From Rubripirellula lacrimiformis (GTDB lineage: Bacteria; Planctomycetota; Planctomycetia; Pirellulales; Pirellulaceae), in assembly GCF_007741535.1 (NCBI RefSeq), contig NZ_CP036525.1, positions 7,068,001 through 7,132,000 on the forward strand: a stretch of DNA of 64,000 nt. The letters are read 5' to 3'. Shown here in pieces: positions 24,317 through 41,543 of the stretch; within the stretch, counting starts at the first letter, position 1; the number at the start of each line of letters is the position of its first letter. The notes beneath the pieces are model-generated. The model was not told where the DNA came from and searched no databases. It was given only the letters and a program-made list of their open reading frames with translations. Made by a program: the position numbers and the translations under genes.

Positions 24317-26089
24317 ATGATGGATCGTCGTTTTCTAGTGGCAGTCGCCTTGGCTGCGATGGCACAGTTGGTATTTACCGAGCTTGCCCATTCGCAAAAC
24401 TTTGAGCGATACCAACCGAAACTCTTTGGCCCGTTGAACGATCGTAAAATCGATCTCGACGCGACCTCAACGCCTGACGACGATACGCCCAGCAGCGATG
24501 TGGTGTTGGTCGATGCGCTCGAAGCGGTCATCATTCTGGATCACCCAGATGCGGTCGATCCACATGAATCCCACTCGGAACTGCAGGGAATTCACTCGCG
24601 GATCGGTTCCGCTTCCTCGTTGGCGAACTCGACCGCCGTCCACCGATCGATTCACTTGCACCTTGGCAAAGCGATCACGCTTCGCAATCTAAACCAGCTT
24701 ACCCGTGACATCATTGGCATCTATGAAAAATCGGGTCAGCCGATTGTGGATGTGCAAATCCCGGAGCAAAAAATCACCGGCGGGACGGTTCAAATCGTCA
24801 TCGTCGAATCTCGGATCCATACGCTTCGTGTGACCGGGACAACGTGGGTCGACCCCTGTTTGCTGCGACAACAGATCACGCATACCCGTGTTGGTGGACG
24901 AATCTATGAACAGTGCCTCGCCGAAGACCTGTATTGGCTGAACCGAAACCCATTCCGATCCGTGGGCTTGGACATCCAACCGGGCGGCCTTGACGGCACG
25001 ACCGACCTGACATTCGAAGTGGACGATGTCTTCCCGCTTCGCGGCTATCTGGGATACGAGGACACCGGCGTTGAAACGCTTGGGCTGGAACGGCTGTATG
25101 CCGGCTTGGTGATGGGGAACCCGTTCGGGCAAGACGGCGTCCTGGGGTATCAATTCACGACCGACGCGGCCATTTCACAACTGAAAGCGCACGCACTTAG
25201 CTATAGCGTTGACGTTGACCGCAAACATTCAGCGTTCCTGTTCGGAAGTTGGGCCACGGCGTCGCCAACGCTGCCGGCGCCCCTGACTCAGGACGGCGAA
25301 GCCTGGCAACTCGGCACCCGATTGTTTCACTACCGAACACGTACTGCCAATGAAGAAAACGCGTTCTTCGTCGGAGCCGACTTCAAATCGTCCAACACAT
25401 CTGTCGAATTTGGTGTCGTCAACGCGGCCCAATCCGACGCCGACCTGTTGCAACTGAACTTCGGTTACAACGCATTCAAACGGGTTGCCAACGGGGACTA
25501 CGTTCGCTGGAACACCGATATCAACGTCAGCCCCGGGAATGGGTTCACGTCTCGAAACAACGCGACAGCCTTCAGTACACTTCGTCAGGACACCGCCCCC
25601 GGATACGTGTACGGCCGATCGGCGATCGACCTGCGACGCCAAGTAGGATGCCGCTACGAACTGCTGTCCCGGGCAGTGGGTCAAGTCACATCGGATCGTC
25701 TTTTGTACAGCGAAACGCTCGGATTTGGTGGCTACGATTCCGTCCGCGGTTACGACCAACGTGTTGCCAATGGCGATAACGGATGGTTGAGCAGTTTTGA
25801 ATTTGGCCCGCAACCAACGGTCTACGACAGCGGGAAATCCATGCGGACGCTGAAGTACTATGCGTTTTCGGATATGGGGCAAGCCTTCATTGTCGATCCG
25901 CAAGTTGGTGAACAGAGAGAGCAGTACCTTGCCAGTGTCGGGGTTGGCCTTCGCTTTGCGATCGCCGATCGACTTGCTGTCCGATTGGATTACGGCCAGG
26001 GGCTCAGTGACGTGGTGGACGCCCCCGCAGGCGGTCGAGTTCACGTAGGAATTGTTTCCTTCGTCGGTCCGACACCCAAACGGCGATAA
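24317..26089 (+). CDS. TpsB outer-membrane transporter (ShlB/FhaC family)
   Basis: 590 residues from ATG 24317; the frame is open upstream to 24251 but the signal peptide (FLVAVALAAMAQLVFTELAHS) starts cleanly here. A POTRA region follows (about 110-250: YEKSGQPIVDVQIPEQ, GGTVQIVIVESRI, LYWLNRNPFRSV), then a long beta-barrel part with GYLGYEDTGVETLG, YSETLGFGGYDSVRGYDQR (the VRGY motif of the family) and a C-terminal strand (GRVHVGIVSFVG). It should insert in the outer membrane and secrete the exoprotein encoded upstream. Length agrees with the family. Confidence 0.9.
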   Translation: MMDRRFLVAVALAAMAQLVFTELAHSQNFERYQPKLFGPLNDRKIDLDATSTPDDDTPSSDVVLVDALEAVIILDHPDAVDPHESHSELQGIHSRIGSASSLANSTAVHRSIHLHLGKAITLRNLNQLTRDIIGIYEKSGQPIVDVQIPEQKITGGTVQIVIVESRIHTLRVTGTTWVDPCLLRQQITHTRVGGRIYEQCLAEDLYWLNRNPFRSVGLDIQPGGLDGTTDLTFEVDDVFPLRGYLGYEDTGVETLGLERLYAGLVMGNPFGQDGVLGYQFTTDAAISQLKAHALSYSVDVDRKHSAFLFGSWATASPTLPAPLTQDGEAWQLGTRLFHYRTRTANEENAFFVGADFKSSNTSVEFGVVNAAQSDADLLQLNFGYNAFKRVANGDYVRWNTDINVSPGNGFTSRNNATAFSTLRQDTAPGYVYGRSAIDLRRQVGCRYELLSRAVGQVTSDRLLYSETLGFGGYDSVRGYDQRVANGDNGWLSSFEFGPQPTVYDSGKSMRTLKYYAFSDMGQAFIVDPQVGEQREQYLASVGVGLRFAIADRLAVRLDYGQGLSDVVDAPAGGRVHVGIVSFVGPTPKRR

Positions 26090-27143
26090 AACATCCGCCG
26101 CTACACAAGTGGTGACTTGCACACGATGTGGCTTGCACACCATGCGACTTGCAGCTCGTAAGTCGCAGCTCGGAAGTCACAGCTCGGAAGTCACAGCTCG
26201 GAAGTCACAGTTCGGAGATCGCAGGGGCGGAACGGAATCGTCCGTGATCCAGGCCGATGGACAACCAATGGATCCGTGCTGAAAGCGGATCCGGATGCCT
26301 TAGGTCGAACGGGTTCCCGTATCCACGCCCCGCGGACGGACTGAGACGATGGGGCATCGTTTGCACGTTTGGTGACGCCCCAAAAAGCAAGCGATGCCAG
26401 CGCCCGCCATCACCCCCCCCGGAAGCCCTATCCAGGCCGCTGGGCTTCTGTGTTGAATGGGCATGGCGAGGCCTTTCTTTGCCCGCCTGAAGCGTGACGC
26501 GTGACAATGGCGGCGACCGTGCGGTGGCCCCTGCAACAGCAGAGTCCCCCGTCCGCCGCGGCCACGGGATCACACCGCCGATCTGCCTGCGGGGATCACA
26601 CCGCAGTTCTTGCGGCCGACCCAGCGAGCGTTTCTATAGTCGGGCTATCCCGGCCCCGTTCGCGACGGTGCATCACGTTTTGTCGGTTGGGATTGCGATA
26701 GGGCAAGTTCCGACTTTGGCGATCGCAACGGTTGGCGGGTCGAAGATAGGCGAGGATTGGCCCCACCGGCTAGCCGATCGTCATTCAAACGTCGGTGGGG
26801 GGATGCATTTCAACCTGCGGTTTGCCGTGCCGCACGAATCCACACAGTGGCTGACGGCGCCGGATAAGGACCATCGGGATGGGATGCCACAACGCGGCGA
26901 ATGGCGACCGAAAGACCGCTGCGAACACCCGAAGAGAAACAACGCCCCCTTAAGCCGACGCACCACTGTGGCTTCCCGGGGGCAAACAAAATTCGGTTCA
27001 CCATCCCTAGCAGTTCTTGGGGGGACCCCGAAGGAGGGAAATGGGAAGACAGTCCCATCAGGGACACCAAACGCATCCTACGTTTTAACGGGGCCGGGCA
27101 AACTATGCCCGCCAACATGATTCAAATGATTTGGGGGCAAGTC
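26090..27143. other. 1-kb non-coding stretch with repeats
   Basis: It begins with a short-repeat region (see 26151-26220), preceded by looser repeats of (A/G)CTTGCACAC. Frames at 26257-26490 and 26494-27120 have no domain, unusual composition and no ribosome site, so I do not call them genes. The region separates the secretion system from the signalling cluster and presumably holds the cluster's promoter. Confidence 0.5.
26151..26220. repeat. Five tandem 14-bp repeats
   Basis: Units of (G/A)CAGCTCGGAAGTC: 26151-26164, 26165-26178, 26179-26192, 26193-26206 and a diverged fifth at 26207-26220. The third and fourth are identical. There are no spacers, so this is a simple tandem array, not a CRISPR. 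It lies 60 bases after the tpsB-like gene. Confidence 0.9.
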
Positions 27144-28265
27144 ATGAAGGAAGGGAGTTCGTATGCACCGAATACCGGCTGCACATCCAGTGATCCATCC
27201 AAAGAAGCGCGAAAACCAGCCGAGGGGCACTCGACTTCGTTGACTCGCATTTATGCCAGAGTCGACCGGATCTTCTGCGCCATTACCGCAGTTCAGACGA
27301 CGATCATCTTCGCCGTGGCGATGATTGTTCCGCCTAGCAGGTGGCTGGAATCCGATGGGCTAGTGGGGCTAAGCATTTGGCTGTCACTGACGCTCGGCAC
27401 TCTGGTTTGTGTCATTCCATCGGCACTGACATTCCGATTCGCTGGTCAACCCATCGTGCGACATTCGTTCGCTGTTGCACAGGTCGCATGGTCGGCGATC
27501 CTGATCCATCTGTGTGGTGGCATAGCCGCCGTTCAGCTTTGCATCTTGGTATCGCTGGCGTTGCTGTCTCTGTACCGCGATGTGCGAGTCCTATTGACCG
27601 CCAGTTTCATCTCAGGCGCCGACTATCTGATCCGCAGCAATCTATGGCCTCAATCACTTTACGGTGATCGCGTCATGCTGCCCTATGAATGGCTAGAGCA
27701 TCTGAACTGGTTGATCCTGACGACCGGCTTCTTCGCGTTGACGAGCCACCGCAGCCATCAAGATGTGCAAAAGCTGTGCAAGGCCGAACAGAGTTTGGAC
27801 ACGGCCCGAACCGAATTAGCCAGTCGGGACAAAGTCGAGGACGAGCGTCAGAAAGCAGCCGCAGAAAAGGAGACTGCGATATGCGAAAACGCTTTGAACT
27901 CTGCCTTCGCCGGTTCCTTGACAACCGACCCCGATGCGCTGCAAGCGATCACCGCCATGTTGAAACGAATCAGTTTCTCTATCAACCTGCTTCACGAAAA
28001 GGCAGCGAAGAGCCGCGTGACCACGCTCGTGAAAGCCTCGCGAACCCTGAACGACCGAAAAGAGGACCTGGCGGACTACCTGACGAAAGATAGTCGCGGA
28101 ACGCACTTCCCAAGCATGCTAGCGGAGCTGACGCAAAAGTTGTCTAGCGAACGCGACGATCACCAACGAGAACTGCAGACGATCCAAAAAACCGTCCAGA
28201 CCCTCAGCCAGTTAATCGGCAACGCAGTGACACCCAACGAAAAGTTCGAGTCATGCGAAAAGTGA
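27144..28265 (+). CDS. Multipass membrane protein with kinase-type helical domain but no ATPase domain
   Basis: About 373 residues from ATG 27144, after a GGGGGC stretch; ATGs at 27105, 27117 and 27126 are in frame. The N-terminal 180 residues hold several hydrophobic helices (IFCAITAVQTTIIFAVAMIV; LSIWLSLTLGTLVCVIPSA; VAWSAILIHLCGGIAAVQLC; LILTTGFFAL). A coiled coil rich in Ala/Glu/Lys follows (about 200-255), then a helical segment (LADYLTKDSRGTHFPSMLAEL) strongly reminiscent of the region after the phospho-acceptor His in the two kinases downstream (LGHYLVHDKQGKHF; LADFVTLDPRGKQF). The HNVGN histidine and the ATP-binding domain are absent. It may be a membrane scaffold or regulator pairing with those kinases. 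The stop overlaps the next start by 13 bases. Confidence 0.7.
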   Translation: MKEGSSYAPNTGCTSSDPSKEARKPAEGHSTSLTRIYARVDRIFCAITAVQTTIIFAVAMIVPPSRWLESDGLVGLSIWLSLTLGTLVCVIPSALTFRFAGQPIVRHSFAVAQVAWSAILIHLCGGIAAVQLCILVSLALLSLYRDVRVLLTASFISGADYLIRSNLWPQSLYGDRVMLPYEWLEHLNWLILTTGFFALTSHRSHQDVQKLCKAEQSLDTARTELASRDKVEDERQKAAAEKETAICENALNSAFAGSLTTDPDALQAITAMLKRISFSINLLHEKAAKSRVTTLVKASRTLNDRKEDLADYLTKDSRGTHFPSMLAELTQKLSSERDDHQRELQTIQKTVQTLSQLIGNAVTPNEKFESCEK

Positions 28266-30709
28266 GGTCTCATCAGATCGAACAATCCGCGGATCCAAAC
28301 GGATGCGTGCTGGCAACGCTGTCGATGCAAGATCGATACGCCAAATGGTGCCATCAGGTGACGACGGCGTGGGGTGTGTTGGTGGTGTCGCTATTGCTGA
28401 CCGGATTAGCATGGCATTTGACAAATCGCCACGTGGATCGACGCAAACGCGACCACTTCAATTTTCGCATCGCAGAAGTGCAAAGCAAGATCGAAGAACG
28501 CATGCTGCAGTACGAGCAGGTGCTTCGCGATGGCGCTGCCCTGTACACCGCCAGCGAAAAAGTCACCCGACAAGAGTGGCGTGACTACGTCCGGCTGTGC
28601 CAGATCCCAGAGTATTTCCCTGGCATCCAAGCCATGGCGGTGTCCATCGTTGTGCACCCGGACGACAAGCAATCGCACATCGATTCGGTCCGCGCCGAAG
28701 GATTCCCCCACTATCAATTGCATCCCGAAGGTGATCGGGACCTGTACTCTGCGATCCTATTCATCGAACCCTTTGATTGGCGAAACCAGCGTGCCTTTGG
28801 ATACGACATGTATTCCGAAGCCGTTCGCCGCGAAGCGATGGACCGCGCCGCTAGATCCGGCGAACCGGCCGTATCCGGGAAGATCACACTGGTTCAGGAA
28901 ACCGATCATGACGTGCAAGCCGGCGTTCTTTGCTACCTGCCGGTCTACGCCAATCGGCCGCTATCGGATGCCGAGGAACGACGAGAGGCACTTCGAGGCT
29001 GGGTTTACGCCGCGTTTCGGCTAGACGACCTGATGGCTGGCATCGTGGGCGACAACATCACGGACATCTCGTTCCAAATTTTTGACACCGCAGACATCTC
29101 GCAGACCCAAATCCTATTTGACAGTGAAGGTGCGGATCCAAAGTCCGCGAAAGATCTTTCCGGTGGATTCATCCAACGCAAGATCGTCCCGGTATCAGGA
29201 CGCGATTGGACGATCCAGTTCGCAGCCACGTCCGGTTCCTTTGCCTCTGTTGATCCATTTCTCAGTCCTTCGGTTGCGATCGCTGGACTGCTGATCGACA
29301 TCCTGCTGTTTCTGGTGATCTCGTCGATCGGCCGCCAACGTTCGACGGCCCTCCGATTGGCCGAACAAATGACCAGGGAATTCAAAGAGAGCGAATCGTG
29401 CACACGTTCGATCCTAGAAAACGCATCTGACGCAATCTTGTTGGTCGCGATGGACGGGAAGATCGCGATTGCGAATGAAGCCGCCAATCGCATTTTCCAA
29501 CCCGAGCAATCTTCGGTCGGGGCCAACCCGCTGACGGAATCTTCATTCGACGACTATTTGGACAAGCAGACGTTTGCCGAGATCATTCATACCGCGACAT
29601 CCAGCGATGGTTTCGCCAACGGCTGCGAGGACGGAATCCTGGCTCGCTGCCGACGTCACGACGGCACAACATTCCGATGTCGCATGTCGATTGGCGCCGT
29701 CGATGGTGACGATGGCTACATCGTGATCGCAAGAGACGAAACCGCTCGGCTGGCATTCGAAAAAGAACTCGCCGAAACCAATCGCCAACTGGTCAGCGCG
29801 TCCCACAAGGCCGGCATGGCCGAAGTGGCTACAGGTGCCCTTCACAACGTGGGGAACTCCCTGAACGGTGTCAGTACTTCATCAAGCTTGATCGAAGCGA
29901 TGCTAGACGACAGCCCCATTTCTAGCCTGTCCAAAGCGGTCACCATGATCAATCAAAATCGCGACAACCTGGGACATTATCTAGTCCACGACAAACAAGG
30001 GAAGCATTTCGCCGCGTATCTGACTCAGGTGACCGCAGCCTTGGTCGACCAGAAGGAAAAGTTGGCCGAAGAAAACAGCCAACTCGGCGACCATGTTCGT
30101 CACATCAATCAGATCATTCGATCCCAGCAGGACCAAGCATCGTCGGCGGTTGTCGTGACGGAAGAATCGGTATCCGAACTGATGACCCAAGCGGCGTTGG
30201 TGAACTTTGGACGCCATCCCGATTACGACATTGTGATCGAACACAACTTCCAAACGCCCACGACGATCATGACCGATCGCAACAAAGTGTTGCAGGTGTT
30301 GGTCAACTTGGTTGCGAATGCGCAGGACGCCGTTCGTGATGTCATGGATACGGCCCGAACGGTATCCCTGTACGTGGAAGACCTCGACAACGAAGTGCGG
30401 TTCGTCGTCAGCGACAACGGGCCTGGAATCTCGGCAGTCGATCTGCCGAGAATTCGCGAATTCGGATTCACGACCAAAACCGATGGGCACGGATTTGGCC
30501 TGCATTCCTGCGCCATCGTGGCTGAGGAACTTCACGGCGACCTGCAGATCCAGAACAACGCCTCCGGAGTCGGAGCCCGGTTCACATTGATTCTTCCGTT
30601 GTCGAATCCGGATAGCGTGCCAAACCAAGGATCCAGATTGGTTCCCGTGATGGCCGTTGCCGACGTCCACTCGCCGGCAGTGGAACCAACCGTGGGAGCC
30701 GACAGATGA
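28253..30709 (+). CDS. CHASE-PAS sensor histidine kinase (HNVGN type)
   Basis: 818 residues. Membrane helix at about 38-56; a periplasmic CHASE domain at about 70-265 (YFPGIQAMAVSIVV, YHLHPEG-like YQLHPEG, FGYDMYSE); second helix at about 340-360; PAS at about 383-500; phospho-acceptor H531 in ALHNVGNSLN; ATPase domain at about 630-790 with VNLVANAQDAV (N box), VVSDNGPGI and GHGFGLHS. CHASE domains bind small extracellular ligands, best known from cytokinin receptors. The HNVGN motif replaces the usual HE-x-x-N/T and marks a sensor-kinase subgroup. There is no attached receiver, so phosphate must go to a separate regulator, probably the hybrid or REC-HDOD proteins encoded downstream. The end overlaps the binding-protein gene by 4 bases. 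Confidence 0.92.
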   Translation: MRKVRSHQIEQSADPNGCVLATLSMQDRYAKWCHQVTTAWGVLVVSLLLTGLAWHLTNRHVDRRKRDHFNFRIAEVQSKIEERMLQYEQVLRDGAALYTASEKVTRQEWRDYVRLCQIPEYFPGIQAMAVSIVVHPDDKQSHIDSVRAEGFPHYQLHPEGDRDLYSAILFIEPFDWRNQRAFGYDMYSEAVRREAMDRAARSGEPAVSGKITLVQETDHDVQAGVLCYLPVYANRPLSDAEERREALRGWVYAAFRLDDLMAGIVGDNITDISFQIFDTADISQTQILFDSEGADPKSAKDLSGGFIQRKIVPVSGRDWTIQFAATSGSFASVDPFLSPSVAIAGLLIDILLFLVISSIGRQRSTALRLAEQMTREFKESESCTRSILENASDAILLVAMDGKIAIANEAANRIFQPEQSSVGANPLTESSFDDYLDKQTFAEIIHTATSSDGFANGCEDGILARCRRHDGTTFRCRMSIGAVDGDDGYIVIARDETARLAFEKELAETNRQLVSASHKAGMAEVATGALHNVGNSLNGVSTSSSLIEAMLDDSPISSLSKAVTMINQNRDNLGHYLVHDKQGKHFAAYLTQVTAALVDQKEKLAEENSQLGDHVRHINQIIRSQQDQASSAVVVTEESVSELMTQAALVNFGRHPDYDIVIEHNFQTPTTIMTDRNKVLQVLVNLVANAQDAVRDVMDTARTVSLYVEDLDNEVRFVVSDNGPGISAVDLPRIREFGFTTKTDGHGFGLHSCAIVAEELHGDLQIQNNASGVGARFTLILPLSNPDSVPNQGSRLVPVMAVADVHSPAVEPTVGADR

Positions 30710-31935
30710 TTTTTCCAGACACGGGTCACCGATATTCAATCTGTGCCACGATCGTCGTTTGCTGCGTTGTGTTGTTTGCACCATCACCGCTAAGGGCTGC
30801 GACACACGATCCAAACACGAACATCGTATTGGGCATGTCCACAGCGTTATCCGGGCCTGCGAGCGACTTGGGCATCAACATGAAGCTTGGCGTGGACTTG
30901 GCATTGAAAGACGTCAACCACCGCGGCGGCATAGGCGGCAAGCCGATCCGTTTGGTTGCGTTGGACGATGGCTACGAACCCGCCAGAACGATCATCAACA
31001 TGCGGCAACTGATCGAAAAAGAAAATGTTCTCGGTGTGATCGGCAATGTGGGCACACCGACCGCGATCGCTGCGGTTCCGATTGCAAACGAAACTCGCAC
31101 ACCGTTTTTGGCAGCCTACTCTGGCGCCGGCGTTCTGCGACGCGATCCGCCCGACCGATATGTCGTCAACTATCGCGCCAGTTACGCAGAAGAAACCACC
31201 GCAATGGTCAATGCTTTGATCACGCAGGTTGGATTGAAGCCGACCGAGGTCGCGTTCTTTACTCAGCGCGACGGATATGGCGACGCCGGATTCATCGGTG
31301 GCATCCAGGCACTGAAGAAACATGGTCTTCAAAGTGAGAACCAAATCGTACACGGACGCTATGAACGCAACACACTAGCGGTTGAACTGGCGTTGGCCGA
31401 GATCATGCTGCACAAGGTACCGCCGAAAGCCATCATCATGGTCGGGGCATACGCCCCCTGCGCCCAGTTCATTCGATTGGCCAAATCGATGGACTATCAC
31501 GGTCTGTTTCTGAACGTTTCATTTGTGGGGTCGCTGTCACTGGCACGCGAATTGGCGGAACAGTCCACCGGCGTGATCGTCACGCAGGTCGTTCCGCATC
31601 CGAATTCCGAATTGCCGATCGCCATCCGCTATCGGCAGGCGATGCAGCAGTTCGGTCCCCAACCTGCGGACTACAGTTTCGGGTCGCTGGAAGGTTTCAT
31701 CGCCGCCCGCATCTTGATATCCGCGTTGCAATCGAAGCACTTTGACGGAGGCCGCGAAAGCGTCATTCGTTCGCTCGAATCGATGGGCGACTTCCCCATG
31801 GGGTTGCCCGAACCGCTTCGATTGACCACCACCGATCATCAAGCCAGCCATATGGTTTGGCCAACCGTATTGATCAACGGATCCGTGGTGCCGATCGAAT
31901 GGTCGGATCTGTCCGGGGAGCGAACCCGTGAATAG
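30706..31935 (+). CDS. Periplasmic binding protein, branched-chain amino acid type (Peripla_BP_6)
   Basis: 409 residues with a signal peptide (ICATIVVCCVVLFAPSPLRA, cut near residue 32). The mature part opens with IVLGMSTALSGPASDLG and LGVDLALKDVNHRGGIGG, the standard start of LivJ/UrtA/AmiC-type binding proteins, and continues with LGVIGNVGTPTAIAAVPIAN. The fold is complete and normal in length. No permease or ATP-binding genes adjoin it; instead it overlaps a sensor kinase gene on each side (4 bases upstream, 8 downstream). That context points to a sensory ligand-binding partner for one or both kinases rather than an import system. The ligand is unknown; amides, urea or branched amino acids are typical for the family. 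Confidence 0.88.
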   Translation: MIFPDTGHRYSICATIVVCCVVLFAPSPLRAATHDPNTNIVLGMSTALSGPASDLGINMKLGVDLALKDVNHRGGIGGKPIRLVALDDGYEPARTIINMRQLIEKENVLGVIGNVGTPTAIAAVPIANETRTPFLAAYSGAGVLRRDPPDRYVVNYRASYAEETTAMVNALITQVGLKPTEVAFFTQRDGYGDAGFIGGIQALKKHGLQSENQIVHGRYERNTLAVELALAEIMLHKVPPKAIIMVGAYAPCAQFIRLAKSMDYHGLFLNVSFVGSLSLARELAEQSTGVIVTQVVPHPNSELPIAIRYRQAMQQFGPQPADYSFGSLEGFIAARILISALQSKHFDGGRESVIRSLESMGDFPMGLPEPLRLTTTDHQASHMVWPTVLINGSVVPIEWSDLSGERTRE

Positions 31936-34423
31936 ATCCACCGCCAAGAAAGCCACCCAGTCGCCCCTGCAACGCACGGGCCTGGTTTGGTTATTGACCG
32001 CCGTCGGATTAAGCACCGTAGCAATCGTGCTGGCGGCCTCGTTCTGGTCGCTCGTTCGAATTCGCGCCGATCGTGTTGCCAGCGACAAATTGCTGGCCGA
32101 AGTATCCAGCATCGCCAATCGTGGCGATCGAGTTGTGGAACATTTCGGACGTAATTCGCTGCGACTATTGAATGACAACACCGCCAATCAGGGATTGGAC
32201 CTTCAACAGCATCTGTCCTACCAAACGGATTCATGGTTGGACGCATCGATTGAAATTGACCAGCGCATCGCCGGCACGGTCGACGAACTGGTTTCATTCA
32301 CCAACGAGATTCAGCTGCTGAATTTCAGCTGTCACCGGCTGGCAATCAAACGAGCTCGCATTCGCGGAATGCGATCCGCTGGAATTCGCGAATCCGAAGC
32401 AGCAATCCTGCATCTGCAAAGGATCCTAAGTTCCGCCGAGGGGACACGGATGCTGGAACTTGCCAAGGACTTTCAAATTTACAAACGACTAGACGGAAAG
32501 GCTGCACAGGAAGCGGCCCAACAGTTTCTAGAGATCTGGTCTACGCAATTCATTCAGTCGGAAGTTGGGCGAGACCTGGACGAATTGCTGCTGTTGCACC
32601 AACAACTGATTGCCGAAACCAACCGCGACGCACTGATTGATTTACGAGACAATCAGATCAAGCCTCGTTTCGATCGATTGCGGCGCATCTTCGAATCGCA
32701 ATTACCGGAAACGGCGACGGCCGAAGTCGTTGCAATCGACTCGGATCGTTACGACGAGGCAACCACAGCCCCCGCCGCCGACCCGCGTCTGGATGCACTG
32801 CAACAACTGGAAACAGCGTTTCTAGGCGTTGGTTTCACGTATGACCGAGGACGACAATCCATCTTGATGGGACGCGGTGGGTTGTATCAGAGCTGCGCAC
32901 AATGGTTAGAAGTCGAAGCGGAACGCGAACTGTTGAAGTCGAGCCGTGTCGAACACCTAAGCAGGTATGCCAAGGTCAAAGATCAACTGCTTCAGCGTTC
33001 CGCCAAAACAACCAGCGATTCGGCCCACCAAGCCACCGCACTGGTTGCGAAAGCGTCGATGACCATTCTTGTGATCGGCTTGCTTTCGGCCGTGGTGTTC
33101 TTGATCCTGGCCAAAATGATTGCCAAGACGATCTCGTCCCAACTGAACACGCTGTCGCAGCAGTCCATTGAACTCAAGGCCGCCAAGGCGGAAGCGGACA
33201 AACTTTCGCTGGTCGCAAAACACACATCCAACTCCGTCGTGATCACCGATTCGGCGTCTAGAATCGAATGGGTCAATGATGGATTCACTCGGATCACGGG
33301 GTACGCCCCCAAGGAAGTCATCGGTTTAGTGCCGGGACACTTCTTGCCGGGCGAAGACACCGATCCAAGGACCGTCGAACTGATCCGCGCTGCGATGTTA
33401 GAACGCAAAGGTTTCGACGTCGAACTGATCAACTATCACAAAGATGGAACGCCCTATTGGATTGCAACGGAAGTGCGTCCAATTCGCGACAGTGATGGAT
33501 CGGTGATGAACTTCATTGCGATCGGATCCGACATTACCAGTCGAAAGACGGCAGACAGGGAACGCGAACTTCTGGCCAGCGAATTGCAGGCCAGCGCCCG
33601 CCAGGCCGGGATGGCCGAACTTGCCGGCGAAGTGCTCCATAACGTAGGAAACGCGTTGAACAGCATCAACGTATCGGCACAAACGCTGCGTGACCGATTT
33701 GATTCGCCCACCTGCGAACATCTAACGAAAGCATCCCAACTGATCTGTGATCACGAGGATCAACTCGCCGACTTCGTCACCCTTGACCCTCGCGGCAAAC
33801 AGTTCCCGAACTTCTTTCGGCAACTGGCTTCGGTGGCAACATCCGATCGTCAATCGCAATTGGACGAAGTCCGCGAATTGATCGAAAAGATTGATCACGT
33901 AAAAGAGATCGTTGCATGCCAGCAAGCATTTTCCAACCAACGTTCACCTCGTGAACCCGCATCCCCCGTCACGGTCGCCGAACAGGCGATCAAAATGAAT
34001 ATCGCATCGTTGGGGTATCACGGCATTCGCTTGGAAAGAGACTTCGAATCCGGTTCGGATGTCTTGCTGGAAAAACACTCCATCATCCAAGTTCTGATGA
34101 ACCTGATCAAAAATGCCAAGGAATCGGTAGTGGCCGCCGACATGGCCGATCCCTGCATCAAGGTTTCCATCCGACGCCGACCTCACGAAATCACTTTCAT
34201 CGTGTCCGACAACGGCATGGGCATTGCCAAAGAAAACTTTGTGGAAGTCTTTCGTCACGGGTACACAACCAAAGAATCCGGACAGGGCTATGGACTGCAT
34301 TCATCCGGCAACATGGCCCAAGACTTGGGCGGATCGCTATCGGCCGCTAGCGAAGGCGAGCGGCGCGGAGCCACTTTCACACTGACCGTTCCAACCATCG
34401 AGATCACATCATGTATCGCGTAG
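31928..34423 (+). CDS. PAS sensor histidine kinase (HNVGN type)
   Basis: 831 residues from GTG 31928, with GGGGAG just upstream. Membrane helix at about 18-42; a large, mostly helical periplasmic region (about 45-375) containing HQQLIAETNRDALIDLRDNQ; second helix at about 377-397; PAS at about 425-540 (FTRITGYAPKEVIGLVPGHF); phospho-acceptor H571 in VLHNVGNALN; ATPase domain with VLMNLIKNAKESV, IVSDNGMGI and GQGYGLHSSG. It is related to the kinase at 28253 in the catalytic half but has a different sensor half. The helical periplasmic domain suits contact with a binding protein, and the binding protein is encoded directly upstream with overlapping ends. Confidence 0.9.
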   Translation: MNRSTAKKATQSPLQRTGLVWLLTAVGLSTVAIVLAASFWSLVRIRADRVASDKLLAEVSSIANRGDRVVEHFGRNSLRLLNDNTANQGLDLQQHLSYQTDSWLDASIEIDQRIAGTVDELVSFTNEIQLLNFSCHRLAIKRARIRGMRSAGIRESEAAILHLQRILSSAEGTRMLELAKDFQIYKRLDGKAAQEAAQQFLEIWSTQFIQSEVGRDLDELLLLHQQLIAETNRDALIDLRDNQIKPRFDRLRRIFESQLPETATAEVVAIDSDRYDEATTAPAADPRLDALQQLETAFLGVGFTYDRGRQSILMGRGGLYQSCAQWLEVEAERELLKSSRVEHLSRYAKVKDQLLQRSAKTTSDSAHQATALVAKASMTILVIGLLSAVVFLILAKMIAKTISSQLNTLSQQSIELKAAKAEADKLSLVAKHTSNSVVITDSASRIEWVNDGFTRITGYAPKEVIGLVPGHFLPGEDTDPRTVELIRAAMLERKGFDVELINYHKDGTPYWIATEVRPIRDSDGSVMNFIAIGSDITSRKTADRERELLASELQASARQAGMAELAGEVLHNVGNALNSINVSAQTLRDRFDSPTCEHLTKASQLICDHEDQLADFVTLDPRGKQFPNFFRQLASVATSDRQSQLDEVRELIEKIDHVKEIVACQQAFSNQRSPREPASPVTVAEQAIKMNIASLGYHGIRLERDFESGSDVLLEKHSIIQVLMNLIKNAKESVVAADMADPCIKVSIRRRPHEITFIVSDNGMGIAKENFVEVFRHGYTTKESGQGYGLHSSGNMAQDLGGSLSAASEGERRGATFTLTVPTIEITSCIA

Positions 34424-34653
34424 TCCTGCTGGCCGGTTCCGCGTTGCGATGGGGCGTCTGTGTGACGGTTGCGACGACTTGGTGGGCATCCGTTTCCAAC
34501 TTGGAAAACAACCAACCCAATCGATCGCAGTTACAGCAATCCCATGAACGACGACCAGATCCAACGTCCGTCGATTTGGCATTCGCTAGCCAGCGGAGCC
34601 ATCCCGCCGGCGCCGCATTCCAACCACTTCCACTGATTCGACAGTCACTGTAA
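34411..34653 (+). CDS. Small protein with N-terminal hydrophobic segment, unknown function
   Basis: 80 residues. ATG 34411 overlaps the kinase stop by 13 bases and its TAA overlaps the next ATG (TAATG at 34651-34655), so it fills the gap between two genes exactly. Residues 4-28 are hydrophobic (VVLLAGSALRWGVCVTVATTWW) and could be a membrane anchor or signal peptide; the rest is polar, rich in Gln, Pro and Arg. No family recognised. The fit between neighbours argues for a real gene; the lack of conserved features argues for caution. Confidence 0.45.
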   Translation: MYRVVLLAGSALRWGVCVTVATTWWASVSNLENNQPNRSQLQQSHERRPDPTSVDLAFASQRSHPAGAAFQPLPLIRQSL

Positions 34654-36410
34654 TGATTAGCAACGAAACCAAACCGCGGATTCTGATCATCGATGACAAC
34701 CCATCGATTCACTTGGACTTCCGAAAGATCCTGGTCGCTGATACCGAATCCCAGAACCTTCTAGACGCGGCACTTGCGTTTTTCGGTGATGACGATGCAC
34801 CGCAGGACGACGGGGGATACAAGCTGGACGTCGAATTGGACTCAGCACACCAGGGCGAAGAGGGCTATCAGAAGACGCTGGCGGCCGTCGAAGAGGGGCG
34901 TCCCTACACGCTTGCGTTCTGTGACATGCGGATGCCACCCGGCTGGGACGGACTGACCACGATTGAACACCTGTGGAAAGCAGACCCTCATTTGCAAGTC
35001 GTGATCTGCAGCGCTTACTCAGATTCCACCTGGTCGGAAATCACCAAACGTCTCGGTCGCTCGGATCGTCTTCTAATCCTAAAAAAGCCTTTCGACAACG
35101 CCGAGGTCATGCAGTTGGCGGTTGCGTTGATCGAAAAACGGCGATTGATCAGCCTAGCGTCGTTGAAGCGAGAGGAACTGGAACAACGGGTCGAAGAGCG
35201 AACCGTGCAGTTGAAAGAACGCGACCAAGCTTTACGCCAAAAGCGAAAACTTGAAGCGCTCGGATCGCTGGCTGGCGGAATTGCCCATGAATTCAATAAC
35301 CTTTTGCAAGCCATCATGGGCTATACGAATTTCGCCATGGAAGACCTTTGCCAAGATGAACAGCCTTACGACGACTTGTCGCATGCCATGGAAGCAACCT
35401 CGCGAGCCACAGCGATCACGGCCGAACTACTGAAGTTCAGCCGCCAATCGCCTCCTGAAAAATCGATTCGACAAGCCAACGAAATCATCGACACGATGAC
35501 CGTTCTGCTGAAGCCCCTGCTTTCGTCGCGGATCGAAATGAGTGTCGAAATGTGCGACGACCCCGGGTTCGTGTCGGTCGACTTGGATCAACTTTCCCAG
35601 GCCCTAATGAATCTATGCATCAACGCTCGGGATGCGATGGAAGACGGTGGCAAGCTATCGATCCAACTTTATCGTCAATCGAGTACCGACAAAACGGATT
35701 GTGCAAGGAGGCCCGGGTCATTGGAATGCGGGCCGAGCGATTTCGTGGTGATTGCTGTCACGGACAACGGCAGCGGAATGTCGGAAGATATCGTCGAAAG
35801 GATTTTCGAACCGTTCTATACGACCAAGGAAGTCGGAAAGGGCACCGGGTTGGGATTGTCGATGGTGTTTGGAACGTTGGAAGATCACGGCGGCTGCGTC
35901 ACAGTGGAAAGCAGCGAAGGAAGCGGATCGACTTTCCGACTGTTCCTGCCGTTGGTCAGTGAACCAGTCGAAGATTCGCTTTGCCCGATCGCTAGCGACG
36001 AATCCGCTTGGACGGGCGGAACGGAAACGATTCTGTTGGCCGAAGACGATGCAATCGTCCGCCAAATCACCGCCCGAGTCCTGATCAGCGAAGGCTACAC
36101 CGTGATCGAAGCGGTCGATGGTCAAGACGCGATTTCGAAGATCAACGAGAATCCGGATTCCATCCAGCTGGCGCTGTTAGACATCATCATGCCGCATCAA
36201 AGTGGCCATGACGTGGCTCGGCATCTGGCCGAAGTCAGTCCTGAAACCCCAGTGATTTTCTGTACCGGCTACGACGCTGCGTTGAATGACGACGCAGGGT
36301 CGGAACTTCAAACCTCCCAGCGGCTGATCCGCAAACCAATCTATCCATCAACTCTATTGCAGGAAGTACGCCGGATGCTTGATTCCCATCTGGCTTGTCT
36401 GACTCTTTGA
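34653..36410 (+). CDS. Hybrid histidine kinase with receivers at both ends (REC-HisKA-HATPase-REC)
   Basis: 585 residues with no membrane helix. The N-terminal receiver (ILIIDDNPSIHLDF; phospho-acceptor D91 in FCDMRMPPGWDG) is longer than usual, with an acidic insertion after ILVADTE. A coiled coil follows (RVEERTVQLKERDQALRQK), then the H box GGIAHEFNNLLQ with H212, N box LMNLCINARDAM, VTDNGSGM and GKGTGLGLSM. The C-terminal receiver carries D510 in LLDIIMPHQSG. The soluble form, with an input receiver, suggests it accepts phosphate from the two membrane kinases encoded upstream and relays it. It starts inside the stop of the small gene and is followed after 60 bases by the REC-HDOD gene. 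Confidence 0.93.
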   Translation: MISNETKPRILIIDDNPSIHLDFRKILVADTESQNLLDAALAFFGDDDAPQDDGGYKLDVELDSAHQGEEGYQKTLAAVEEGRPYTLAFCDMRMPPGWDGLTTIEHLWKADPHLQVVICSAYSDSTWSEITKRLGRSDRLLILKKPFDNAEVMQLAVALIEKRRLISLASLKREELEQRVEERTVQLKERDQALRQKRKLEALGSLAGGIAHEFNNLLQAIMGYTNFAMEDLCQDEQPYDDLSHAMEATSRATAITAELLKFSRQSPPEKSIRQANEIIDTMTVLLKPLLSSRIEMSVEMCDDPGFVSVDLDQLSQALMNLCINARDAMEDGGKLSIQLYRQSSTDKTDCARRPGSLECGPSDFVVIAVTDNGSGMSEDIVERIFEPFYTTKEVGKGTGLGLSMVFGTLEDHGGCVTVESSEGSGSTFRLFLPLVSEPVEDSLCPIASDESAWTGGTETILLAEDDAIVRQITARVLISEGYTVIEAVDGQDAISKINENPDSIQLALLDIIMPHQSGHDVARHLAEVSPETPVIFCTGYDAALNDDAGSELQTSQRLIRKPIYPSTLLQEVRRMLDSHLACLTL

Positions 36411-36470
36411 GCTTTTCGAATGCTCTACAACGGCACGCAATCTTTCGTCGCGTTTGACACAACTAAAACT

Positions 36471-38177
36471 ATGAACACAACCAACACTCTTGCACTTGTC
36501 GTGGACGACGAACCGCTGGTTCGAAACCTAACCGTACGCGCTTTGACGCGTGAAGGATTCGAATGCGACCAGGCTCAGGATGGCCACGAAGGCGCTCGCA
36601 TGGTCGCCAAAAACGACTACACCGTTGTGGTGACGGATCTGAAGATGCCCAACCAAAATGGGCATGCGTTTGCCGTTGAATTGATGTCCAGCCCCCATCC
36701 ACCGGCGGTTGTGATTCTGACCGGAGTCACCGAACCAAGACTTGCAAAGGATTTGTTGAGTCGAGGCATCGAAGACATTGTTTACAAACCGATCGACTAT
36801 GCAGTTTTTGGGATGAAGGTCCGTGCGATTGCCGATCGGGCGTTGGCAAAGTCAGCATCCTCGAATTCCGCGACCGGTGCGGAAGCCGATGAAATGGCGG
36901 AAAATTCCATCTCACAAGCGAACCCGGGGCCGCTCGTTGCCGAGTCAGGCAGAGGACCAACCAGCCACGATGCGACAATCACGTTGGGATCGGTGGCCGA
37001 GCGGATCAAGTCGGGTGATGGAATCATCGCTATCGGTGAAGCAACGCTGCAGGTCTATCGCATGACGGATTCTGATGAACTGGATGCGAATGCGCTTTCG
37101 AATTCGATCGCCACCAGTGCGGTATTGAGCGACGAAATCATCAAGCTTGCCCAAAGTCCGTTCTACAACCCTGCGGGAGCGAAGGTCCCCGACCTGTCGC
37201 GGGCGGTGGTTCAAATCGGCAGAAAACGCGTTGGCCATCTCGCGTTGGCGGCAACGGCCCAAGCAGCCCTATCGATCGGCGACCCATCACCGCTGAACGT
37301 TCGTCTGATTTGGGCAAAGGGTGTCGCCGCGGGCTTGGCCGTCGAAATGATGGTGGAACAGGGCGGACACGAGGCGATTGCGGATGGTTTGGCGCTGTGT
37401 GCCACGATGCAAAATGCCGCTCCGGTCGCATTGGCCAGGCTGTTCCCCGGTCGTTACCAATCGATGGTCAACAAATGGTCCGACACCGGTGTTTCATTCG
37501 AAGCCGCAGAGAGAACCTGCTTGGGTGACGATCTGCAAGCCATCCACCGACTGGCCCTAGGCGCATCCGGCATGAGCCAACGCGAAATCGACGTGATTGT
37601 GCATCTGCGTGATGACGAAGACAGCCTGTCGAAGCTTCCCGAAGAACTGCAAAACCGAGTCAAACTGGTCAAGCTGGCCGGTCAGATCGCCGAGGCGGTC
37701 ATCGGTGTCTGGGACAACTGGGACGAAATCGCCATGCCGGAACCCGGGGTCGCAGACGTCCTGCAGCTATGGTCGGTTGATACCATCATTGAAAGGACAA
37801 CCGCCAACCTGAAAGGGATCAACCTAACATTCGTCGAAAACTCTAAGTCGTCTGCTGATGATCCAGATCCGCGCGAACTGACCTATTGCGATTCAGCGTC
37901 GGATTCGTTCGATTTCCTAGAGTCGGTTGTCTCGTCGATCATCCCCAACGTCGAACGCGGTTTCAATCCGACCGCGGCCAAGGGGAATGTCTTGGTGAAC
38001 TGCATTGGTGCTTGCAACGAGGACATTTTTGCGATGGTGGAAACCGCCGAGGAGGCCGATCTGTGCGTCGCGATCAGTCGCCAAGACGAAGATTTTTATC
38101 AGAGCCTTCCACGGGTCGTTTCGTTCCCCAGTAGCTACGGCGTCGTCCAGTCGAAACTACGTTCTGCGGTCCAGTAG
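36471..38177 (+). CDS. Response regulator with HDOD output domain
   Basis: 568 residues from ATG 36471 (the frame is open to 36420, but the receiver begins right after this Met). Receiver: D12/D13, phospho-acceptor D56 (VVTDLKMPNQNG), T in VVILTG, K in VYKPIDY. An acidic linker is followed by an HDOD-type domain at about 170-390 (ANALSNSIATSAVLSDEIIKLAQSPFY; ARAVVQIGRKRVGHLALAA-like). The remaining 150 or so residues match nothing I know. HDOD domains are HD-related but mostly non-catalytic and occur in regulators of c-di-GMP, motility and cell cycle. It is the likely final output of the phosphorelay encoded upstream. Confidence 0.85.
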   Translation: MNTTNTLALVVDDEPLVRNLTVRALTREGFECDQAQDGHEGARMVAKNDYTVVVTDLKMPNQNGHAFAVELMSSPHPPAVVILTGVTEPRLAKDLLSRGIEDIVYKPIDYAVFGMKVRAIADRALAKSASSNSATGAEADEMAENSISQANPGPLVAESGRGPTSHDATITLGSVAERIKSGDGIIAIGEATLQVYRMTDSDELDANALSNSIATSAVLSDEIIKLAQSPFYNPAGAKVPDLSRAVVQIGRKRVGHLALAATAQAALSIGDPSPLNVRLIWAKGVAAGLAVEMMVEQGGHEAIADGLALCATMQNAAPVALARLFPGRYQSMVNKWSDTGVSFEAAERTCLGDDLQAIHRLALGASGMSQREIDVIVHLRDDEDSLSKLPEELQNRVKLVKLAGQIAEAVIGVWDNWDEIAMPEPGVADVLQLWSVDTIIERTTANLKGINLTFVENSKSSADDPDPRELTYCDSASDSFDFLESVVSSIIPNVERGFNPTAAKGNVLVNCIGACNEDIFAMVETAEEADLCVAISRQDEDFYQSLPRVVSFPSSYGVVQSKLRSAVQ

Positions 38178-38582
38178 CCAGCGTGGATTTCCAGGGGTGG
38201 AAAAATTCAACATGCCCCCGGTGCTGTGCCCAATCCGACGAATACCCCGCCCCCCAATCTTGGTTAGGTGTGGCAACACAATCCCTGCCGACGACGGGGT
38301 CGCCGCGGTTGGCGAAGGTGTGTCAACGACGCCGCCGCGATCGCAATGGCGCCGCGAACCGCCCGCTGGCTGCTTCGTTGGCTAGAATGAATAGCGTGAA
38401 GGGGTTACTCCCATGAATTCATAGCAAGCATCACCCGAGAAACTAGAATGCAAGTTCACCAGCCTGCAGACCGGTGGGGACGTATCCTTGCTTTCGCGGC
38501 GAAGAACCTCCACTAGCCAGCAACCATTTCTGTTTGCTGGACACCAACAAACCGCCCTGTTTCGCCACAAGATCGCTGAACA
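38178..38582. other. Intergenic stretch, nothing recognised
   Basis: 405 bases between the REC-HDOD gene and the FG-GAP lipoprotein gene. Only short overlapping frames; no RNA gene, clear terminator or repeat found. Confidence 0.5.
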
Positions 38583-41543
38583 TTGCTTTTGCCTACACCT
38601 CGCTGCCGAATCGGCAAGTTGGCTTGCCTGTTCTTCGTCGTTTTCCCGCTTGCGCTGACCGGTTGTCGCGACCATTCCCACGCATCGTCCAACGAAGCGT
38701 TCGGCCCGGGAACCGTCGATATTGACCAGAATCTAGAGGCCGCGATCACCGCTTGGCGTTCCGGCGATCACCAGCAAGCTGGAAAGCGATTGAAACAGAT
38801 TCTGATCGTTTCGCCCACGCATGCTGATGCGCTGTTCATGCTTGGACGAACGCAAGCAGCCCAGGGCAAAATTGAAACGGCGATCGACACGGTATCGGAG
38901 ATTCCGCCGGGCAGATCCGAGGTCGCCATTGCGGCACTGGGGCAATCAGCGAACTGGTTCATCCAGCTAGGCCGCTACCAGGAAGCCGAGAGCCATTTAC
39001 GAGCGTTGATCGAGGTCGATAACGATTCTTTTGTCGCTCATCGTCGACTGGCTGAACTGCTGAACAATCAAGGGCTGCGAAGCCAAGCGATTCCCCACAT
39101 GCGGTCACTGGCGCGAATAGGTCAGCCCACCGAATACGAACTGTACGGGATGACGACGTTCCGCAATCCGTTCACGCATTTCATTGCCAGCGAAGGGAAC
39201 GATGAAATCCGAACCGTCGGCTTGGGAATCGCCAGACGACTGCTTTCCAACGGAAAAACGGACCAGGCTGCCGCCATGGTCAAAACGCTGATGCAGCAGT
39301 CCCCCGAATCGACCGCCGTTTATGCGTTTTATGGACGGATCCTTGTCGACCGCCAGGACGACGCGGCATTGGCCGCCTGGCTGGCCTCGCCCCCACCAGG
39401 AATCGACCAACAGCCGGAATACTGGGCCGCGGTGGGCCAATGGTACCAACGTCACAACAAACACTCGATCGCAGTACGCTGTTTTTCAGAAGCGGTTTTG
39501 CGTGACGACACCGATCGCCATTCGTATCTTGCAATGGCTCGATCGTTGCAGGCCATCGACCACACCGAAGAAGCCGCGAAAGTGATGCAGCGATATTCGT
39601 TGCTAGACGAAGTCGACCTCTGCGTATCAGCGATCAAACGCACGCCCGATCAAATACGCCGATTGCCGATCGCGTTATCGGCTCTACGCCGCCATGATGA
39701 AGCGAAAGCGTGGTGTGGTCTACCAGAGTTTTCGGCAGCCAGACTGCCAACGCCGAAACCGGCCTCGGATGGGGCGGATCATTTCTGGGTCACCTGTGGG
39801 ATCGATCCATCGCGATGGCCGTTACCCGACATCAACGAACCGGCAATTTCGGCTCCGCATTCGGTTGCCGAAACACCGTCGTCGTCCGCCCCGATCGTTC
39901 TTGCCAATGTTGCCGAACGTTCCCAACTGGACATGCAGTATTTGCCGGGGCCAGCCGGAACGGATCTCGATCGCCTGTTGCTGCACCAAACCGTTGGCGG
40001 TGGGGTGGCTGTCCTGGATTATGACCTGGATGGTTGTCCCGACCTGTATTTCAGTCAAAGCGGTGGGGCTGCCTTCGATCCGAACGGTTCCGCCCCCAAT
40101 GCACTCTTTCGCAATCACGATGGCAAGACGTTTGCCCGGGTCGAATCATTGGCGCAGGTCGATGACCGTGGATATGGGCAGGGCGTCAGTGCGGGCGATT
40201 TGAATCAAGACGGATTCCCTGATCTGCTGGTCGCCAACATCGGCGTCAATCAATGGTTCATCAACAATGGCGACGGCACGTTCACACGCCGATCACTCAG
40301 CGAATCCAACGGCAGCAATCGCTGGACGACTTCCATCGCCTGCGGAGACGTTACCGGCGACACATTGCCGGACATCGTGGAAGCCAACTACATCGATGAC
40401 GCGGCTGCGCTCGTCGGCCAATGCTGGGCGGTCGGAGGCCAGGGATTGTGCAACCCCAATCGTTACAACGCGGCCACCGACCGAACTATGGTCGCAACGA
40501 TCGATGGCAACTTCAAGCCGTTAGCGACAGAGAGCCTCGATTTAGCCGGCTATGGATTCGCGATCGTGATTGGCAACATAGACCAACAATTTGGCAACGA
40601 CATTTTCATCGCCAATGACACCGACCCCAACCATTTATGGCAGAGTCACCCACTTGATCCATCGCCGACCCAGTACGGGTTGCAGCAGGTCGGAACACTG
40701 ATTGGTTGCGGCAATGGCACGACCGGCAATCCGAACAGTTGCATGGGCGTCGCGGTGGGCGACTTCGACCGGAACGGCCAGTTGGACTTGCATGTCACCA
40801 ACTACACCGACGAATCGTCGGATCTGTTTCTTCAACAATCATCACGAATCTTCACCAACAGTGCGGTTCAGTATGGATTGGAAGAGGCAACCACACCAAT
40901 GGTCGGATGGGGCACGCAGGCATCCGATTTCAACGCCGATGGATGGCTAGACTTGGCGATACTCAACGGGCACCTCTACAGCGCTCTGAACGACGGCACG
41001 CCGTATCGGATGCCGCCCCAAATTTTCCGCGGCGGGAAAGACAGATTCCACGAAGCAACCACAGATTCGCGAGACGATTCGTTTTGGAAAACGGCCACCG
41101 TGGGACGTACGTTGGCGACGACCGACTGGAATCGAGATGGCAAGACCGACCTCGTTGCGTACAACATCGACACGCCCGCCGCACTGTTGGAGAACCGATC
41201 CCAAGGTGGCCATTGGCTGCAGTTGGAATTGGTCGGTACGTCCAGTGAACGCAGTGCAGTCGGTGCCATCATCACCGCTACCTGTGCCGGCGAAAGCTGG
41301 ACTCGTTGGGTGACATCGGGGGACGGATTCCAATGCAAAAACGAATCCATCCTGCATGTCGGACTAGGACAAACCGAGGGCGATTGCCGGATCGACATCA
41401 CCTGGCCATCCGGGAACCAGCAAACATTCGACCGCATCCCGATCAACCAACGCTATCTGGCCATCGAGAACGATCCACAGCTGCACAGTCGTGATCAGGA
41501 CCCAGGCGATCAAGACCCAGGCGATCAGGACCCAGGGAGCTAG
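38583..41543 (+). CDS. TPR / FG-GAP / ASPIC-UnbV lipoprotein
   Basis: 986 residues from TTG 38583. The N-terminus is a lipoprotein signal with lipobox LALTGC (Cys near residue 28). TPR-like helical repeats fill about 40-350 (HADALFMLGRTQAAQGKIETA; AESHLRALIEVDNDSFVAHRRLAELL). FG-GAP/VCBS repeats follow at about 440-850: YDLDGCPDLYFSQSGG, DLNQDGFPDLLVANIG, DFNADGWLDLAILNG, DWNRDGKTDLVAYN, each with the Asp-rich calcium-binding loop. The end has the ASPIC/UnbV module (SAVGAIITATCAG...WPSGNQQTF). Such CRTAC1-like proteins are abundant in planctomycetes and sit at the cell envelope; their biochemical role is unclear. The C-terminus is three DQDPG repeats and a Ser. Confidence 0.88.
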   Translation: MLLPTPRCRIGKLACLFFVVFPLALTGCRDHSHASSNEAFGPGTVDIDQNLEAAITAWRSGDHQQAGKRLKQILIVSPTHADALFMLGRTQAAQGKIETAIDTVSEIPPGRSEVAIAALGQSANWFIQLGRYQEAESHLRALIEVDNDSFVAHRRLAELLNNQGLRSQAIPHMRSLARIGQPTEYELYGMTTFRNPFTHFIASEGNDEIRTVGLGIARRLLSNGKTDQAAAMVKTLMQQSPESTAVYAFYGRILVDRQDDAALAAWLASPPPGIDQQPEYWAAVGQWYQRHNKHSIAVRCFSEAVLRDDTDRHSYLAMARSLQAIDHTEEAAKVMQRYSLLDEVDLCVSAIKRTPDQIRRLPIALSALRRHDEAKAWCGLPEFSAARLPTPKPASDGADHFWVTCGIDPSRWPLPDINEPAISAPHSVAETPSSSAPIVLANVAERSQLDMQYLPGPAGTDLDRLLLHQTVGGGVAVLDYDLDGCPDLYFSQSGGAAFDPNGSAPNALFRNHDGKTFARVESLAQVDDRGYGQGVSAGDLNQDGFPDLLVANIGVNQWFINNGDGTFTRRSLSESNGSNRWTTSIACGDVTGDTLPDIVEANYIDDAAALVGQCWAVGGQGLCNPNRYNAATDRTMVATIDGNFKPLATESLDLAGYGFAIVIGNIDQQFGNDIFIANDTDPNHLWQSHPLDPSPTQYGLQQVGTLIGCGNGTTGNPNSCMGVAVGDFDRNGQLDLHVTNYTDESSDLFLQQSSRIFTNSAVQYGLEEATTPMVGWGTQASDFNADGWLDLAILNGHLYSALNDGTPYRMPPQIFRGGKDRFHEATTDSRDDSFWKTATVGRTLATTDWNRDGKTDLVAYNIDTPAALLENRSQGGHWLQLELVGTSSERSAVGAIITATCAGESWTRWVTSGDGFQCKNESILHVGLGQTEGDCRIDITWPSGNQQTFDRIPINQRYLAIENDPQLHSRDQDPGDQDPGDQDPGS
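41493..41537 (+). repeat. Three 15-bp repeats encoding DQDPG
   Basis: GATCAGGACCCAGGC at 41493-41507, repeated at 41508-41522 and 41523-41537 with single changes. In frame at the very end of the lipoprotein gene, so unit gain or loss would change only tail length. Confidence 0.9.

Follow-up and report, generated by a model that had tools for sequence, protein, structure and literature searches.

A cluster of seven open reading frames (ORFs), here named g1 to g7, was predicted in a stretch of DNA from the planctomycete Rubripirellula lacrimiformis (contig NZ_CP036525.1, positions 7,068,001 to 7,132,000). The original prediction, made from the sequence alone, described a phosphorelay in which two membrane kinases surround a lone periplasmic binding protein. 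We find that the cluster, apart from g5, is a conserved signalling unit, and that its binding protein belongs to a clade whose members mostly adjoin receptors. The whole stretch of 64,000 nucleotides (nt) is called the window, and coordinates are positions in it.

Gene content of the cluster

All seven ORFs lie on the + strand. g1 (27144-28265) encodes a multipass membrane domain followed by a lone DHp-like helical region, with neither an HNVGN box nor an ATPase domain; its ORF is open from 26901, and an alternative start at 27117 is possible. g2 (28253-30709) encodes a CHASE-PAS histidine kinase of the HNVGN class (Pfam: CHASE, 2e-65; PAS; HATPase_c, 7e-19), and g3 (30706-31935) a Peripla_BP_6 binding protein (2e-47) with a Sec-type signal peptide recognized by eye. 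The product of g4 (31928-34423) has a helical periplasmic domain predicted to be TorS-like (approximately residues 14-420), for which the Pfam scan gave no significant match, followed by PAS (PAS_9, 3e-19) and an HNVGN-class kinase (HATPase_c, 5e-15). After the 80-residue ORF g5 (34411-34653) come g6 (34653-36410), a soluble hybrid kinase with the arrangement REC1-HisKA-HATPase-REC2 (Pfam: two Response_reg, HisKA and HATPase_c) and with Asp91, His212 and Asp510 assigned by motif position, and g7 (36420-38177), a REC-HDOD protein (Response_reg and HDOD) with a conserved C-terminal region. For g1 and g5 the family scan gave no significant match. Successive ORFs from g1 through g6 overlap by 13, 4, 8, 13 and 1 nt, and 9 nt separate g6 from g7. 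By alignment and domain scan, the catalytic motifs of g2 and g4 (histidine box and ATPase motifs) are intact, with His531 of g2 and His571 of g4 as the presumed phosphoacceptors. Coordinates and Pfam matches agree with the original description of seven ORFs in one direction, mostly with small overlaps, and with the domains that it assigned. It also saw no ABC permease or ATPase here, and there is none among the seven ORFs.

One predicted component probably does not belong to the set. No homolog of g5 was found in the three orthologous loci described below (best tblastn E 0.64), and its codon score is the lowest of the seven (0.11 bits per codon, compared with 0.21-0.39 for the others), although still the top among its three frames. 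g5 is probably not a gene, which would leave a gap of 229 nt between g4 and g6, and we rejected it as a component because it is not conserved.

Conservation of six genes in order

The order g1-g2-g3-g4-g6-g7 and the orientation of these genes are kept in three further genomes from the family, namely those of Rhodopirellula rubra (locus L131) and R. sallentina (L132) and genome G589 (L215). The first two loci were found through their binding proteins, and a g1 search of 241 family genomes returned both again and added L215. Identities to the window, given in the order L215, L131 and L132, are 42, 42 and 46% for g1, 61, 57 and 57% for g2, 67, 58 and 60% for g3, 56, 46 and 46% for g4 (best segments), 68, 63 and 69% for g6 (best segments), and 59, 54 and 54% for g7. 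The copies differ in detail: g4 is longer in L131 (1089 residues) and L132 (1075 residues), and in L215 g6 stops before REC2 and g7 starts 72 nt further on. None of the ORFs of at least 120 residues that flank the cluster in the window (15001-27100 and 38181-52000) was found in the roughly 3-5 kb on each side of the three copies, so that g1 to g7 marks the extent of the shared stretch.

A tree built from 92 binding proteins pairs those of the window and L215 with support of 100/96. The four cluster members fall in a starred set of this tree (97/99) together with a very long and unsure branch, L005, because of which only 1% of bootstrap trees show strict monophyly of the cluster binding proteins.

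These comparisons confirm that the cluster is a real conserved signalling unit; a chance neighbourhood is ruled out by the gene order kept across genomes. Of the seven genes whose order had been predicted, six recur in the three genomes. The original prediction had named livHMGF-type neighbours of the binding protein's relatives, together with unconserved synteny, as the mark of a chance neighbourhood; since gene order is conserved, this is not the situation at the locus. Among the titles returned by literature searches on planctomycete binding proteins and kinases and on Rhodopirellula two-component and HDOD proteins, none concerned this cluster.

A binding protein from a signalling clade

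Relatives of g3 were collected with a 14-member profile from a collection of 84,980 species, in which candidates had been preselected with two short peptide patterns. The counts that follow refer to the best 80 of at least 573 confirmed candidates, from which records very near the window were possibly left out. In 66 of the 80 loci, a receptor with one shared domain is encoded directly downstream of the binding protein on the same strand, and in 7 more such a receptor lies elsewhere in the locus (73 in total, some at contig ends or in overlapping ORFs). The shared domain was not found in the other seven (L168, L174, L187, L189, L193, L197 and L198); in L168 and L197 the contig holds no gene downstream of the binding protein. 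Among the 66 receptors, 61 have enough sequence left for their C-termini to be classified, and these carry HATPase_c (41), GGDEF (10), EAL (8) and MCPsignal (7).

Signs of transport are scarce by comparison. ABC-ATPase-like ORFs were detected by motif in 2 of the 80 loci among the chosen genes and in 4 when every ORF of 150 residues or more is counted, and the one nearest to a binding protein (in L185) lies 473 nt upstream on the opposite strand. This motif test revealed no livHMGF-type neighbourhood in the 80 loci, permeases not having been searched for. The solved relative of g3, 4kv7, is named as a probable Leu/Ile/Val-binding protein. We conclude that g3 is a member of a signalling clade of binding proteins, and on its gene neighbourhood we reject an ordinary transporter component. 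The lone binding protein of the original prediction is thus likely a co-receptor, as its relatives mostly adjoin receptors.

The same counts speak against a further part of that prediction, in which the binding protein serves both kinases. Whereas the downstream g4-type receptor is present in 66 loci, a kinase directly upstream was detected by motif in only 3, of which L131 and L132 are copies of the present cluster and L194 is a locus with several binding proteins. A link between g3 and g2 is not supported, their conserved position within the cluster being all that points to it. CHASE domains are sensors in their own right.

In a sample of the phylum, a g3 search at 1e-30 matched 34 of 392 genomes, own included, and 29 of 34 other sites plus 3 from close relatives gave a phylum-level set of 32 loci. 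The g4-type domain is directly adjacent in only 8 of these 32, so the more distant binding proteins use other receptors. Among 20 proteins picked from this set, Pfam identified 7 histidine kinases, 7 chemoreceptors and 2 binding proteins fused to a Ser/Thr kinase, with 4 in other families or none. The fusions are in L046 and L048, class- or phylum-level relatives in which the binding protein lies within a longer ORF; it is likewise part of a long ORF in L047, L057, L058 and L065. Planctomycete relatives paired with chemoreceptors are those in L045, L049, L051, L052, L053, L054 and L059.

A TorS-like sensor domain in g4

The shared receptor domain was defined by an iterative profile search starting from residues 1-430 of g4. 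The search ran on 91 downstream neighbours from 112 loci, and its last round matched 74 of these neighbours. It is helical, spans approximately 380 residues and occupies 31967-33187 in the window. At an E-value of 0.01, no Pfam family matched more than one of 56 domain members (17 families, one member each). The domain adjoins one Peripla_BP_6 clade in at least 7 phyla (L131-L210), with kinase, GGDEF/EAL and MCP outputs.

An AlphaFold model of the domain in g4 has a mean pLDDT of 90.1, and in a Foldseek comparison with the PDB its top five matches are TorS sensor domains without exception (3o1j, 3o1i twice, 3o1h and 3i9w). The best of them has an E-value of 4.4e-4, a TM score of 0.68 by target length and 0.49 by query length, a root-mean-square deviation of 5.2 and 14% identity. 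The helical periplasmic domain proposed originally for g4 thus reappears in the model, with TorS sensor domains as its best matches. TorT itself is not named among 30 matches of the binding-protein profile at 1e-10. According to the model, the g4 sensor is TorS-like by fold; it is not established as the same family by sequence. Because of this fold and of the receptor pairing seen in most of the clade, the most likely role of g3 is that of partner to g4, in the manner of TorT and TorS.

Receivers and the likely direction of phosphate flow

Relatives of the REC1 domain of g6 were found in 29 of 246 genomes of the phylum at 1e-20, own included. A gene for an HNVGN kinase is adjacent in 12 of these 29 loci (L222-L250), and in 11 of the 12 it is at most 32 nt away. 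For comparison, among loci drawn from 60 relatives, such a kinase adjoins the receiver of g7 in 0 of 23 and is present in 4 of 26 loci found with g1, all 4 of which are themselves matches to the DHp region. The adjacency in 12 of 29 versus 0 of 23 loci suggests that REC1 of g6 is likely the cognate receiver of the HNVGN kinase class. The genome of the window holds a second pair of HNVGN kinase and REC1, at C1:4454753-4455313 (L250).

Compared with its counterparts in the other copies, g6 of the window is 75-78% identical in REC1, 59-63% in the kinase part and only 48-51% in REC2, which L215 lacks. The mean identity of the g7 receiver among orthologs is 0.76. Since REC1 and the g7 receiver are thus more conserved and REC2 is variable or missing, transfer from the g6 kinase to g7 appears likelier than a route via REC2. 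Full-length relatives of g7 lie beside a g6-like kinase in L121 and L122, beside another hybrid in L120 and about 1 kb from a hybrid in L119.

A proposed multi-input phosphorelay

We interpret the cluster as a multi-input phosphorelay, a reading to which we give a probability of slightly more than 0.6, with the phosphate route deduced from gene pairing and conservation. Secreted g3 would capture a small molecule and dock on the periplasmic domain of g4, for which the pairing and the fold, both computed, are the grounds, and docking would change the activity of the HNVGN-class kinase of g4. The CHASE kinase g2 would sense a second ligand alone. Both kinases would then pass phosphate to REC1 of g6, as the class-specific gene adjacency suggests, and REC1 would set the activity of g6's own CckA-like kinase. 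This kinase would in turn phosphorylate the receiver of g7, whose HDOD part may carry the response through protein contact; to our knowledge, HDOD domains lack the HD metal site.

Several observations weigh against this interpretation. The full cluster is rare, with g1 matches at 1e-40 in 4 of the 241 family genomes, own included. No genome of the same genus matched in that search, and the best hit in 21 other genomes of the genus is a partial match at 6e-37. This rarity may reflect repeated loss or transfer within the family. In R. sallentina, g6 (L132 12562-14321) consists of two ORFs of 284 and 302 residues overlapping by 4 nt, which is either a true split or a sequencing error. Just two Foldseek matches of the g4 domain have an E-value of 0.001 or better, unrelated helical proteins appear from 2.6e-2, and TorS is missing among the 60 shown of the 64 PDB matches of the sequence profile, up to an E-value of 1. 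An HNVGN kinase is lacking within 1.5 kb in 17 of the 29 REC1 loci, and the adjacency counts set loci from the phylum (REC1) against loci from 60 relatives (0 of 23 and 4 of 26). L128, a receiver-only match to g7, has no adjacent kinase homolog. Finally, the model of g1 has a pLDDT of 48, so that the hairpin of this protein is read from its sequence.

The rarity of the full gene set would also fit a different explanation, that g3 with g4, the HNVGN kinases with REC1, and g6 with g7 are separate systems lying side by side and exchanging no phosphate. Each pair does occur alone elsewhere: a receptor accompanies the binding protein in 66 of 80 loci, REC1 the HNVGN kinase in 12 of 29, and g7 a g6-like kinase in L121 and L122. 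However, the six genes hold their order and tight spacing in four genomes, at approximately 42-69% identity and with differing flanks, and REC1 lies inside g6, which ties the last two pairs together. We therefore consider such a side-by-side arrangement unlikely and prefer the phosphorelay.

g1, a kinase relative lacking the catalytic parts

The N-terminal part of g1 shares 27-36% identity with a membrane domain found in other proteins of planctomycetes, several kinases among them. This recurrent membrane domain (in L119, L124, L125, L130 and others) has conserved histidines in the motifs GGRIETHFHxFxSLAF, DHxxRG and EHxxWV, which are degenerate in g1. In the GGRIETHFH stretch, g1 of the window has lost its histidines and the orthologs retain one. 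A Pfam scan of L119, the single full protein with this domain that was scanned, gave no match. Within the same genome, the C-terminal part of g1 matches the DHp regions of g2 (E 3.2e-7) and g4 (4.1e-7); a kinase from another genome (G027) is matched at 1.4e-14. Domain scans and alignments detected neither the HNVGN box nor the ATPase domain in g1 of any of the four orthologs. Thus g1 appears to be a kinase relative that has shed its catalytic parts. The kinase-like helical region predicted for g1 has proved homologous to DHp; the prediction had missed that the histidine box and the ATPase domain are absent.

How unusual this form is can be gauged from a DHp search at 1e-8, which matched 31 of 346 genomes of the order. 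Of the 30 loci kept, two (L251 and L252) are g1 itself, and 24 of the other 28 were evaluated, all but L262, L268, L278 and L279. Each of the 24 has HNVGN in the matched ORF, with both ATPase motifs in 22 and one motif in 2, so that among the sampled loci the lone form without the histidine is confined to the present cluster.

g1 would not autophosphorylate at the usual site. Most likely it would either use its DHp-like part to pair with g2 or g4 or bind REC1, and in both cases tune the relay. We tentatively suggest, with rather less than even confidence, that it represents a new two-component accessory, a naturally occurring DHp hairpin anchored in the membrane and lacking both the phosphoacceptor histidine and the ATPase domain. 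As a dedicated subunit it would pair with g2 and g4, or mask the receiver that these sister kinases share, and thereby balance the input from the binding protein against that from CHASE. A functionless, decaying remnant of a full kinase seems less probable still than the side-by-side systems considered above. The loss of the histidine box, the ATPase domain and several membrane-domain histidines, some of the latter retained in orthologs, would suit decay, as would the full-length relative that R. rubra retains elsewhere in its genome (L218; 539 residues, with HNVGN box and ATPase domain, and separated by two ORFs from a REC1-like protein). Against decay, the same truncated form is found in four genomes, in all of which g1 and g2 overlap by 7 or 13 nt, and its parts are constrained, mean pairwise identity among orthologs being 0.52 in the membrane part and 0.51 and 0.61 in the two DHp halves, compared with 0.20 in the linker.

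Two reported kinases resemble g1 in part. ChrS of Corynebacterium glutamicum and g1 are both kinase forms in which the ATPase domain is broken or absent, and the ChrS form with a broken ATPase domain is described as acting through another kinase, in heterodimers (PMC9491836). As reported there, it came from a laboratory evolution experiment, whereas g1 is conserved in nature. For FasC, of the FasBC system of group A Streptococcus, a transmembrane and DHp fragment is reported to suffice (PMC12675982); according to this source FasC requires its histidine, while g1 has neither histidine nor ATPase domain.

The transporter alternative, in which the binding protein serves an unlinked ABC transporter and lies near kinases incidentally, is very improbable. 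In its favour, branched-chain amino acids are the predicted ligands of most Peripla_BP_6 proteins (PMC9602780), and the best NCBIfam match of g3, at 43 bits where the cut-off is 477, is to a LivJ-like ABC binding protein. The frequent downstream receptors, the near absence of ABC-ATPase-like ORFs by motif in the 80 loci and the lack of a g3 paralog in its own genome at an E-value of 1e-5 all oppose it.

Start of the operon and flanking genes

The original prediction suggested looking for conserved cis sites upstream of 27144. The block ATTTGGGGGCAAGTCATGA (27129-27147, + strand), at the start of g1, is common to the four clusters with small changes; apart from it, the 400 nt upstream can hardly be aligned among them. 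The genome has one exact copy of the block and one with two mismatches, and a dyad, GGGCA/TGCCC, lies upstream of g1 at 27096-27110. On the evidence of four sequences, the block may be either a cis site or the first codons of g1; the latter would apply with a start at 27117, where the window and L215 have in-frame ATGs. A search for an RNA element before g1 gave only one sub-threshold match in Rfam.

The cluster is flanked by genes for a ShlB/FhaC-type outer membrane transporter with POTRA (24251-26089) and a protein with TPR, FG-GAP and ASPIC/UnbV domains (38583-41543).

Relation to known systems and significance

In TorT-TorS, which senses TMAO in E. coli and Vibrio and in which TorS is a hybrid kinase, a periplasmic binding protein likewise acts with a kinase whose periplasmic domain is helical and stacked, and the binding-protein gene adjoins the kinase gene, as g3 does g4 with an overlap of 8 nt. 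The periplasmic part of TorS is described as two stacked four-helix bundles (PMC8534201). The two systems also differ: g3 is a Peripla_BP_6 protein, g4 has an atypical HNVGN DHp region and a PAS domain, its sensor has no detectable sequence similarity to TorS, and the cluster adds a second kinase, a degenerate kinase and an HDOD output. In LuxP-LuxQ, the kinase leaves ligand binding to a binding protein that reports to it (PMC8534201), and g3 likewise would report to a kinase; the periplasmic part of LuxQ is a double PDC fold according to the same source, whereas that of g4 is helical. Of the two analogies drawn originally, TorT-TorS is therefore the right comparison, given the TorS-like sensor of g4, and the fold of LuxQ does not fit.

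Binding proteins have been reported to activate kinases, chemoreceptors, GGDEF/EAL proteins and Ser/Thr kinases (PMC9602780), so that binding-protein-coupled receptors of several output classes were already known, as were kinase-dead partners (PMC9491836, PMC12675982). What sets the present case apart from such receptors in general is that several of these outputs share one binding-protein clade and one receptor domain for which there is no Pfam model. What is new is the conserved cluster, this TorS-like domain family and, above all, g1. The cluster would be a compact system with a single receiver on which two inputs, one of them via a free binding protein, appear to meet, and in which a conserved, catalytically dead partner is built into the same system. 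Beyond it, a widespread domain that couples one clade of binding proteins to kinases, cyclic di-GMP enzymes and chemoreceptors would aid the annotation of many orphan receptors.

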